This document shows positions 13,663 through 16,478 of a DNA stretch of 36,213 nucleotides, piece after piece (the stretch's first letter is position 1; each line of letters opens with the position of its first letter). Below the pieces are notes generated by a model. It saw only the letters and a program-made list of their open reading frames with translations, had not been told where the DNA came from and searched no databases. The stretch covers positions 1 through 36,213 of the forward strand of contig JAKADO010000025.1 in assembly GCA_021820485.1 (NCBI GenBank). The letters run 5' to 3'. Source of the stretch: Bacillota bacterium (GTDB lineage: Bacteria > Bacillota > Sulfobacillia > Sulfobacillales > Sulfobacillaceae). Made by a program: the position numbers and the translations under genes.

Positions 13663-14256
13663 TTATTTCCAGGGCACCAAGAGAGGCTGCAGTTGTTCGC
13701 CCCGCAATGCTTTCTGGACACTCGGCACCATAAGTTCCAGGTGCGCATCCAACGAGCGGGGTTTCTGGACTGGATCGTCTTGGCCAAACGGAACGAAATA
13801 GATGTTGCGGGCGGTCAGCAAACGGCCCAGGTTCACCGCGTTCATTCCCAACAAGTCGTTGGACGTAATGGCCAACAGCACGGGATGGCCGTTTCTCAGC
13901 TGCGCCTTGACGGCCATTGTCACGGGCGAATCATTAATGGCATTGGCGATTTTGGCAAGGGTGTTGCCCGTGCAGGGCATCACCAGGACCACGTCAAACC
14001 AGTGCTTGGGACCGCTGGGTTCCACATCCGGAATGGACAGCAGCATCTCGCGATTGGCAGCTTGGGTTATGGCCGAGCGCCAGTAATCCGGGGTGCCAAA
14101 GCGCGTTTCTACGGTGAGAATGCTGTGCGATACAATCGGCGTGACTTCCGCCCCTTCATCCACCAACTCTTTCATTGTAGCGACTGCGCGCGCCAAATTA
14201 CAGTGGGAAGCCGCCATTGCGACCCCAATTCGCACTCCCGATAGGTTTCCCATCAT
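13663..14256 (-). CDS. spoVFB: Dipicolinate synthase subunit B
   Basis: With SpoVFA this flavoprotein-like subunit makes dipicolinic acid from hydroxy-tetrahydrodipicolinate in the mother cell. The acid then fills the spore core as the calcium chelate. The protein is 197 residues, the Bacillus length. Family segments are GVRIGVAMAASHC at the N-terminus, PCTGNTLAKIANAINDSPVT in the middle, and VPFGQDDPVQKP near the end. ATG 14256 (or 14253) follows AGGAGG at usable spacing. It overlaps the end of spoVFA by 59 bases in another frame, so translation is probably coupled. The gene is 20 bases ahead of asd. The identification is secure. Confidence 0.95.
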   Translation of the reverse strand: MMGNLSGVRIGVAMAASHCNLARAVATMKELVDEGAEVTPIVSHSILTVETRFGTPDYWRSAITQAANREMLLSIPDVEPSGPKHWFDVVLVMPCTGNTLAKIANAINDSPVTMAVKAQLRNGHPVLLAITSNDLLGMNAVNLGRLLTARNIYFVPFGQDDPVQKPRSLDAHLELMVPSVQKALRGEQLQPLLVPWK

Positions 14257-15091
14257 CCCACTCCTCCTCTAACACCAACCCCAGCGTCTCCCATACAATC
14301 TCCGCCGCCCGAATGGGCGCCACTTTTCCGGGAATGCTGAGGATCTGCTGGTACTTCATCCGCATGGACTCGCTCATCGCCAATTCCGGCACCAACCCCC
14401 CTGGAATGGAAGCTAGGTCAATGATCCATTCCGGCCCTGAGCCGTGGAACCAACTGGCGTTCAGGACCGGTGCCGGCGCGGTATTGAAAACACCGTCCAA
14501 GTGGGGACGGGGTGTCACTTCCAAGGGATAGGCCGGGTGTCCGAGAGCTCGAGCCATGGCCCGTTTTTCAATCAGACGCTCGAACACGACCACGCGAGCG
14601 CCGTATCGCGATAGGCGATCCGCGAGCACCATGCCGACGCGGCCAAACCCGATTACACCCACAGGTCGGTCAAAGAGGGTTTTTCCGGATCGGCCGATGG
14701 CCGCCTGAATGGCGCCCTCGGCGGTCGGGATAGCGTTGAGCCACATGAAACTGGATTCCAAGCGATATTGCACGGTACGAATGCCTATCGCCCGGCACCA
14801 TTCCATCACGCGGCTGCCGATCAGTCCAGCCGCCACAAGCCCACCCGTCCCCATGCGCTCCAGCACGTCGCGTGTGAGTGTGACGGTTCCGTTGATGGTT
14901 TGCATCCCGCCGTCGGAACCGATGCCAGTCATTGGTCCGATGACCACATCGGGGGCAGGGTCGGCCGGCACATAGGGTGGGACCCCTTCCGCCTCGAGCC
15001 CCCAACCGCGCACGTGATAACCACGGTCGCGAAGCATCTGGCACAGCCAGACGTCGCGGGTGTCGCCACCCGCCACAACAATACTGCGCAT
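14198..15091 (-). CDS. spoVFA: Dipicolinate synthase subunit A
   Basis: This NAD(P)H-dependent subunit of dipicolinate synthase is 297 residues from ATG 15091, the Bacillus length. It begins MRSIVVAGGDTRDVWLCQML, which aligns with the IAVIGGDARQ start of Bacillus SpoVFA. The nucleotide-binding GFGRVG is at residues 148-153, preceded by IPTAEGAIQAAI. IDLASIPGG lies near 240. In-frame starts at 15106 (ATG) and 15112 (GTG) exist. If the sigma-K-like promoter at 15120-15128 is real, transcripts begin near 15113. That would leave a ribosome site only for 15091 (GGGAG at 15104-15100). It is the first gene of an operon linking spore dipicolinate to the diaminopimelate pathway. Confidence 0.93.
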   Translation of the reverse strand: MRSIVVAGGDTRDVWLCQMLRDRGYHVRGWGLEAEGVPPYVPADPAPDVVIGPMTGIGSDGGMQTINGTVTLTRDVLERMGTGGLVAAGLIGSRVMEWCRAIGIRTVQYRLESSFMWLNAIPTAEGAIQAAIGRSGKTLFDRPVGVIGFGRVGMVLADRLSRYGARVVVFERLIEKRAMARALGHPAYPLEVTPRPHLDGVFNTAPAPVLNASWFHGSGPEWIIDLASIPGGLVPELAMSESMRMKYQQILSIPGKVAPIRAAEIVWETLGLVLEEEWDDGKPIGSANWGRNGGFPL

Positions 15092-15119
15092 CCTCTCCAC
15101 TCCCATCCTCACTCCCGTG

Positions 15120-15216: not shown

Positions 15217-15246
15217 AGAAAGAAGGGAGAGGCCTTCGCCTCTCCC
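15217..15246 (-). terminator. Rho-independent terminator after the GSP17M-like gene
   Basis: GGGAGAGGC and GCCTCTCCC (15246-15238 with 15233-15225) form a perfect 9-bp stem with a GAAG tetraloop on the minus strand, followed by TTCTTTCT. It begins two bases after the stop codon at 15249 and isolates that gene from spoVFA. Confidence 0.9.
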
Positions 15247-15728: not shown

Positions 15729-15787
15729 AAAGCGCCCCCCTTTCATATCTGCCATGCGTGGCTAGCATGTGAATCGGGGGGCGCTTT
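15729..15787 (-). promoter_or_regulatory. Leader hairpin sequestering the ribosome site of the stress gene
   Basis: On the minus strand 15787-15776 (AAAGCGCCCCCC) and 15740-15729 (GGGGGGCGCTTT) are perfect reverse complements: a 12-bp, mostly GC stem around a 35-base loop. The loop itself can form a 5-bp CATGC/GCATG stem. The 3' arm contains the whole GGGGGG Shine-Dalgarno and ends directly at the start codon (15728). No U tract follows, so it does not look like a terminator. It could be a thermometer-like or ligand/protein-controlled translation switch, or simply a processing element behind ymxH. Confidence 0.55.
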
Positions 15788-15795
15788 TCAATCGG

Positions 15796-16053
15796 TTAAT
15801 TTTGACCAGAATTCGCGATTTTTGGCACGTCCGCCAGGTCCACAATCATCACTTCTGGTCCGACGCGGCGAATGGCCGACCAGGGAATCTCAATCCGCTG
15901 GCCGCGGTTGAGGCGGCCGCGTTGCGGGACGATAATCGCCTGAATCGTGCCAGTTTCGGGATCAATGACCAAGTCGCTGTCGCCCAGCGACCCGAGGCGG
16001 CCACCATTGGTCAAATTGATAATGTCTTTAGAGGCCAACTCACTCATCCGCAT
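15796..16053 (-). CDS. ymxH: YlmC/YmxH family PRC-barrel sporulation protein
   Basis: This 85-residue protein is the same length as Bacillus YmxH and begins MRMSELASKDIINLTNGGRLGSLGDSDLVID. A PRC-barrel-like beta domain carries IEIPWSAIRRVGPEVMIVDL. YmxH/YlmC proteins are conserved in spore formers next to the M16 peptidase gene; their molecular role is unknown. ATG 16053 has AGGAGG with eight bases of spacing, and the in-frame ATG at 16071 lacks one. The family position (M16 peptidase, then ymxH, then spoVFA) is kept here. However, a dUTPase-like gene lies upstream and a stress gene has been inserted downstream. Confidence 0.9.
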   Translation of the reverse strand: MRMSELASKDIINLTNGGRLGSLGDSDLVIDPETGTIQAIIVPQRGRLNRGQRIEIPWSAIRRVGPEVMIVDLADVPKIANSGQN

Positions 16054-16097: not shown

Positions 16098-16478
16098 TCA
16101 GACCTCCGGCGCGCCTGGCACGGCGTATCCCGCCTTGTCCGACAATCCCTGCTGCCGCCGAAAATTCTCCTGGTTTTTGGCCAGGTAGCCCTGATAGAGA
16201 GATTCCGCATCCAGGCCGGCGTCAATGCACAGGCTGATGAAGAAATGCAGGACGTCGACCAACTCTTCGTGGAGCTTGGCGTCGTCAATGGGCTGGGCAT
16301 TCTTCCACCACTTGAACCGAGCTTCCTCCACCACTTCCCCTAGTTCCACCATCAGCGCCAGCGCTTCCTTTTGGATCCAGGTGCTGCGATCAAATGCGAG
16401 GTGCCGATCCCGCCGCACTTGATCGTTGAACCGTCGTTGCCATTCAAATATCTCAGCCAATCGGTCCTGCATGCTCAT
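16098..16478 (-). CDS. dUTPase/MazG-like all-alpha NTP pyrophosphohydrolase
   Basis: The protein is 126 residues from ATG 16478. It shows the all-alpha dUTPase_2/MazG-type metal pattern: Glu45 and Glu48 in VELGEVVEE (ExxE) and Glu72 and Asp75 in HEELVDVLHF (ExxD). It also has the WWKN phrase and the C-terminal YLAKNQENFRRQQ helix common in dimeric dUTPase-like proteins. It should hydrolyse a (d)NTP, most plausibly dUTP, to the monophosphate; the substrate cannot be fixed from sequence. ATG 16478 overlaps the M16 peptidase stop (ATGA). ATG 16472 has the better nine-base spacing to GGAGG, so the start is uncertain by two codons. It is not part of the Bacillus version of this operon. Confidence 0.85.
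   Translation of the reverse strand: MSMQDRLAEIFEWQRRFNDQVRRDRHLAFDRSTWIQKEALALMVELGEVVEEARFKWWKNAQPIDDAKLHEELVDVLHFFISLCIDAGLDAESLYQGYLAKNQENFRRQQGLSDKAGYAVPGAPEV

Follow-up and report, generated by a model that had tools for sequence, protein, structure and literature searches.

The locus and its genes

The leader considered here belongs to the minus strand of a stretch of DNA of 36,213 nucleotides, which was analysed as a whole and is called the window, and lies in the gap between ymxH and a co-directional gene encoding a protein of 159 residues; the features referred to in what follows are collected in Table 1. Upstream of ymxH there is a gene of the dUTPase_2 family, and the genes upstream presumably also include ymxG (M16 peptidase-like), while a gene resembling that for dipicolinate synthase A lies downstream. 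The group to which the DNA belongs was linked to Sulfobacillus by a named search (S. harzensis, several MAGs).

The 159-residue protein scores above the Pfam cut-off for DUF1269 and falls slightly short of it for YflT, the heat-induced stress protein (23.1 bits against a cut-off of 26.2 bits). An earlier, preliminary description of this DNA had called the gene “GSP17M-like”, a label that fits in part. The same description had regarded the gene as a separately controlled unit with a terminator of its own; this view is supported, and a terminator-like site does lie 3′ of the gene.

As to the company that the gene keeps, dipicolinate synthase genes are mother-cell genes in B. subtilis. The relevant passages of one paper describe ylmC, a paralog of ymxH, as sigma-E dependent in both B. 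subtilis and C. perfringens, and suggest that YmxH and YlmC are redundant in the mother cell (PMC9332280). When the minus strand of the window was searched using a simple pattern for a sigma-E-like promoter, none was found. No paper dealing with either this leader or DUF1269 as a forespore protein came up in the literature searches that were made.

Table 1 Features of the DUF1269 locus, with positions numbered from the first nucleotide of the window.
Feature	Position	Strand	Remark
dpaA/spoVFA-like gene (dipicolinate synthase A), downstream	14198..15112	-	
Terminator-like site 3′ of DUF1269 gene	15225..15246	-	Terminator scan
DUF1269 / YflT-like gene, 159 aa	15249..15728	-	Pfam
3′ arm of stem, GGGGGGCGCTTT on minus-strand RNA	15729..15740	-	Abuts start codon
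Shine-Dalgarno (SD) AAGGGGGG	15735..15742	-	6 nt spacing to ATG; overlaps 3′ arm
Loop between the two arms, 35 nt	15741..15775	-	
Predicted transcript start, without 5′ arm	15754..15758	-	Inferred, 6–7 nt after -10; folding
CATGCTA, -10-like, forespore (sigma-G/F) type	15763..15769	-	CATACTA at same place in most relatives
5′ arm of stem, AAAGCGCCCCCC on minus-strand RNA	15776..15787	-	Between ymxH and DUF1269 gene
ymxH (YlmC/YmxH family), co-directional, upstream	15796..16047	-	Stop 67 nt before DUF1269 start codon
dUTPase_2 family gene, upstream of ymxH	16098..16472	-	Family match

The stem in the window

The preliminary description had reported a perfect 12-bp stem ending at the AUG, with the SD in its 3′ arm and the other arm between ymxH and the gene, and this is confirmed in every particular: the arms are complementary at 12 of 12 positions, and the ATG of the DUF1269 gene (15728-15726, minus strand) lies directly 3′ of the 3′ arm. 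Among the 14 inverted repeats listed for the 36-kb window, for which the arms were to be at most 80 nt apart, this stem is the sole perfect one of at least 12 nt. Folding of the minus-strand leader gives -39.7 kcal/mol (z = -3.46, with 1 of 200 shuffles equally good), and for the duplex that the 5′ region forms with the RBS the z value is -5.77, matched by none of 200 shuffles.

Two other ways of looking at the leader were tried and set aside. A repeat element was rejected because the 76-nt leader, when compared with its own genome, gives a single match, namely itself, while an alternative in-frame start at an ATG within the loop (at 15755) is, by inspection, not a feature that the leaders of relatives have in common.

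Relatives and their linkage to ymxH

Homologs of the DUF1269 protein were found in 85 of the 101 genomes searched. Of these, 34 come from the family to which the window belongs, and in 25 of the 34, spanning seven genera, the gene directly follows ymxH. These 25 (L002–L026, where L002 is the window itself) are referred to below as the linked copies. In all of them the upstream ymxH is co-directional, and in 24 (L017 not being counted) it is separated from the gene by 61–71 nt; in the window, the terminator scan called nothing between the two genes. The 55 other loci comprise 7 unlinked copies from the family and 48 others. Loci L032–L036 were excluded from the leader comparison as apparent duplicates of genomes already counted, L037 was excluded from the folding set, and the paralog loci L088–L097 were left out because their start positions are unreliable.

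A promoter-like element in the loop

The part of the leader that varies least among the linked copies is a sequence in the loop, CATACTA or a near variant of it. CATACTA combined with a GHATR -35 element is the sigma-G consensus, which is in good part common to sigma-F, and the SASP genes, which are sigma-G genes, offer a standard of comparison within the same genomes. A -10-like site is present 37–44 nt before the start in all 25 linked copies, and in 23 of them it fits the pattern [ACG]A[TC][AG][CA]TA, for which the shuffled mean is 0.57. In the window the site, CATGCTA, is one letter off CATACTA, and it conforms to the CATNNTA type seen before SASP genes of the same genomes. Further afield, a GHATR element followed at a spacing of 15–19 nt by the -10 (GHATR-N15-19-(-10)) was seen in 18 of the 55 homologs that are more distant, as against a shuffled mean of 0.09.

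A -35-like pentamer is present in 9 of the linked copies (the mean in shuffles being 1.45), the other 16 of 25 being without one. In the window no match to GHATR or GNGTR was found 16–19 nt upstream of the -10, and it is because of this result that the window site is not classed as a consensus sigma-G promoter; its type is probably that seen in its relatives, from which it is assigned by sequence comparison.

The SASP leaders themselves (30 were read) contain an [ACG]ATA[AC]TA box in 22 cases, about as far from the start as the -10 considered here, and 15 of the 22 having this exact -10 also have a GN[AG]T[AG] -35. The -10 boxes before SASP genes in the same genomes read CATACTA, GATACTA or GATAATA, and in the genome of the window itself CATACTA precedes two SASP genes. 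SASP genes of the family (leaders L098–L127) show a -35 of the type G-N-G-T-A at 17–18 nt, a slight departure from the GHATR consensus, and the -10/-35 pattern of these genes could be used as a model of the forespore promoter for Sulfobacillus. Separately, it was observed that in the SASP leaders L114, L115, L120, L128 and L149 there is strong pairing around GATAATA, with GTGGGT pairing with CCACTACC and the SD core partly involved.

On a genomic scale, the strict pattern TGAAT-N16-20-CATACTA gave 0 matches in the window's own genome and 1 with the reversed control. In eight genomes of the genus a looser -10/SD/ATG pattern had 162 matches and its reversed form, used as the control, had 50.

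Sequestration of the SD and coevolution of the arms

The extent to which the SD is sequestered was expressed as its probability of pairing with sequence lying 5′ of the end of the -10. By this measure the probability is at least 0.5 in 24 of the 25 linked copies, with a mean of 0.78, as against means of 0.30 in 30 SASP leaders and 0.33 in 38 other -10/SD/ATG sites of the genus. The Mann-Whitney test gives p = 4.9e-07 (against SASP leaders) and 2.7e-05 (against genus sites) when all 25 linked copies are used, and 1.8e-04 and 5.4e-03, respectively, when these are reduced to 12 diverged representatives. A paired SD is also found in some of the controls (8 of 30 SASP leaders and 14 of 38 genus sites).

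The sequences of the arms vary between genera. MAFFT alignments of the leaders fail to line up the arms and were excluded from the pair counts. When the arms of 12 leaders less than 75% identical were swapped among one another, the duplex energy was -16.3 kcal/mol, compared with -21.4 kcal/mol for each leader with its own arm, a result equalled in none of 20,000 permutations; in the full set there are five leaders (L004, L008, L010, L024 and L026) for which the own arm is about equal to, or worse than, the average foreign arm. In the 25 linked copies the pair at position three of the SD core is G-C in 8 cases, A-T in 11 and G-T in 1, while in 5 there is no pair, the partner being mostly C where the SD reads GGGGG and mostly U where it reads GGAGG. 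The stem is a conserved RNA structure with coevolving arms across seven genera. The preliminary description had reckoned with the possibility that the arms might not be conserved in relatives, which is excluded by the retention of an SD-sequestering arm in 24 of 25 copies and by the coevolution of the arms.

The exception is L026, where sequestration by an upstream arm is 0.00 and the SD pairs instead with bases at and 3′ of the -10; in this leader (1432-1503) the partner of the SD arm is ACTAACCCC, the start of which falls inside the -10 box.

Outside the linked set the picture is more varied. Two loci, L027 and L028, have ymxH upstream yet lack a clear hairpin. Of the seven family homologs situated away from ymxH (L056, L059, L067, L069, L071, L072 and L075), five show little upstream pairing of the SD, while in L069 and L072, where the adjoining gene is divergent and is not ymxH, the SD is largely paired; in several of these seven the simple score has probably misplaced the -10, and for this reason no conclusion is drawn from them as to any link between the hairpin and the upstream gene. 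In genera g4 and g6 (L059, L069 and L072) the homolog lies next to a divergent gene whose translation, judged by eye, resembles enoyl-CoA hydratase, and in L069 and L072 there is a possible promoter, GCATA ... CATGCTT. The SD is paired in 23 of 48 distant homologs. Clear hairpins enclosing the -10 are found at L046, where the arms are CTCCCAG/CTGGGAG, and at L063, where they are CCTCCTTCT/AGAAGGAGG. These two loci represent two distant families, and what lies directly upstream at L063 (start 2000) and L046 (start 1997) is a small membrane-protein-like ORF of some 106–129 aa, with no recognised ymxH.

Folding of the two possible RNAs

If the element in the loop is a promoter, the gene could be carried on two kinds of RNA, one reading through from ymxH and another that was modelled as beginning 6 nt after the -10. 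According to the folding model, the SD of the linked copies is unpaired to a mean extent of 0.18 in the read-through RNA and 0.66 in the promoter RNA, and it is the less accessible in the former in all 25 cases; in the window, and in 24 of the 25 linked copies, it is predicted to lie in the 3′ arm of a stem that is stable only in the longer RNA. For the window the dependence on start position was modelled at 50 °C: the SD becomes free when the start is no more than 48 nt from the ATG, at 51 nt the result is intermediate, and from 54 nt outwards the SD stays paired. Temperature was found to matter little: from 0.146 at 30 °C and 0.145 at 37 °C, the modelled unpaired fraction of the window's SD goes up to 0.175 when the temperature is 80 °C. 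As modelled, then, the hairpin sorts transcripts by their start position, and is no thermometer.

Interpretation

The stem, its conservation, the coevolution of its arms, the conserved -10 and the accessibility of the SD in the two RNAs, all of which were computed, are best explained (with a probability that we would put at roughly 0.7) by a latch against read-through, built around a probable forespore promoter. Polymerase running on from ymxH would make a long RNA whose RBS is paired with the 5′ arm, and on this RNA the DUF1269 gene would be silent. A promoter of sigma-G/F type, with its -10 in the loop, would give rise to a shorter RNA that begins just within the loop, leaving out the 5′ arm, so that the SD would be open and the gene translated. 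In this way the mother-cell (or vegetative) RNA of the ymxH cluster would yield no forespore protein, and translation of the gene would probably be confined to the developing spore. As regards the sigma factor, the start site, the occurrence of read-through and the type of cell, the scheme is inferred. A forespore gene placed beside mother-cell genes would presumably be read by the mother-cell polymerase unless insulated in some way. Several results count against the latch: the window has no -35 match and a -10 that is one letter off, 16 of the 25 linked copies are without the -35 pentamer, L026 does not hide its SD by means of an upstream arm, some of the control leaders have a paired SD as well, the pattern search gave no sigma-E-like promoter, and the presence of the hairpin does not strictly track the upstream gene (L027, L028, L069 and L072).

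A more specific version of the latch may be formulated, in which ymxH transcripts made by sigma-E polymerase in the mother cell would carry the forespore gene in silent form, only a start by forespore polymerase within the loop would yield a translatable RNA, and the arrangement would be kept by the coevolving arms and may have arisen repeatedly in the class (L046 and L063); this we regard as tentative, its chances being somewhat short of even.

Other explanations have to be weighed against the latch. The hairpin might be a constant damper, the main transcript start lying upstream of the 5′ arm and translation always being kept low, much as the small hairpin of B. subtilis sigG acts according to the part of PMC5942855 that deals with it. 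The stable and conserved sequestration of the SD would fit such a role; however, neither the fixed position of a -10 inside the loop of 25 linked copies, nor the presence of this type of promoter in distant homologs, of which many are without a strong hairpin, would be explained, and a damper seems to us unlikely. L026 is possibly a case where the hairpin does act as a damper instead of a latch, since its arm begins within the -10 and part of the arm would therefore stay in the promoter transcript.

The proposal originally made in the preliminary description was that of a switch, either an RNA thermometer or a ligand-sensing element, acting on the gene's only transcript. It drew on the hiding of the SD in the stem and on the nearness of the protein to stress-protein families, but opening by heat is not supported by an accessibility that in the model hardly changes between 30 and 80 °C, nor opening by a ligand by a search of the window against Rfam, which gave 0 matches to known families at gathering score; moreover the loop, a possible site for a ligand pocket, owes its conservation mainly to the -10 element, and the arms vary from genus to genus. 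The conserved forespore-type -10 points, in addition, to a transcript start within the loop, something that the preliminary description had itself seen as telling against its idea; on this evidence the switch falls, leaving it very improbable, while the hairpin gains a different job, the silencing of read-through RNA.

Were the inverted repeat instead a repressor-binding DNA operator surrounding the promoter, the folding of the RNA would be incidental and the flanking of the -10 by the arms would be accounted for; but a binding protein common to the genera should have kept the arm sequences from changing, so the divergence of the arms between genera, with pairing kept and each arm on the whole fitting its own partner best, speaks against it and we give this reading very little credence. 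Just as hard to credit is a terminator of ymxH set against the next gene, for which there are five T near the end of the leader in L003 and four in L006 and L008 but runs of only 1 to 3 T in the other 22 of 25 copies (in the window UUU, then AUG), with no conserved U-run after the stem and, in the window, no long U-run and no call by the terminator scan at the stem, just as the preliminary description had seen nothing terminator-like there.

Comparison with known systems

The read-through latch preferred here has relatives among known systems. In the transposase genes of IS10 and IS50 a stem in read-through RNA covers the RBS, while the element's own transcript is without the stem; these are mobile elements, whereas the DUF1269 leader would belong to a developmental gene. 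A second example is the large hairpin of B. subtilis sigG (spoIIIG), for which PMC5942855 cites Sun 1991 and Masuda 1988. As set out in the pertinent sections of PMC5942855, sigG lies downstream of spoIIGA-sigE, and the hairpin, of 20 or more pairs, was proposed to block translation from read-through RNA, being unable to form in RNA from sigG's own promoter. The likeness is evident, in that a sporulation gene has a sigma-F/G promoter (a predicted one in the present case) and a hairpin confined to the read-through RNA; the differences are that the gene is DUF1269, the upstream gene ymxH and the lineage another one, and that coevolving arms are seen in seven genera, the present case being a prediction from sequence. 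The small hairpin at the sigG RBS is, in the account given in those sections, a different matter, as it is contained entirely in the transcript from the promoter, which it dampens 2-4 fold (PMC5942855); it too hides the RBS of a forespore gene (as DUF1269 is predicted to be), but the 5′ arm of the DUF1269 hairpin is outside the predicted promoter transcript.

A further parallel comes from phage T4, where gene e (and also soc, 49 and I-TevI) has, according to the relevant portion of PMC3014915, a late promoter within the region that encodes the 5′ strand of a hairpin, such that the RBS of gene e is hidden in long early RNAs and late RNAs without the 5′ part are translated. What is governed there is the timing of phage genes, as shown by experiment, whereas here it would be the cell type in a spore former, as a prediction. 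Since the same logic is found in sigG and in T4 gene e, the kind of device is known, and the DUF1269 leader would be a new member of it.

The wider interest lies in the fact that in spore formers mother-cell and forespore genes can adjoin on one strand, and that without a terminator between them read-through would put proteins in the wrong cell. This locus would offer a compact answer, namely a hairpin that is carried only by the wrong transcript. A principle proposed for one B. subtilis gene, sigG, is apparently kept here in seven genera by compensatory change, and can therefore serve as a search pattern; a survey of RBS hairpins that enclose a forespore -10 would gauge how common such insulation is.
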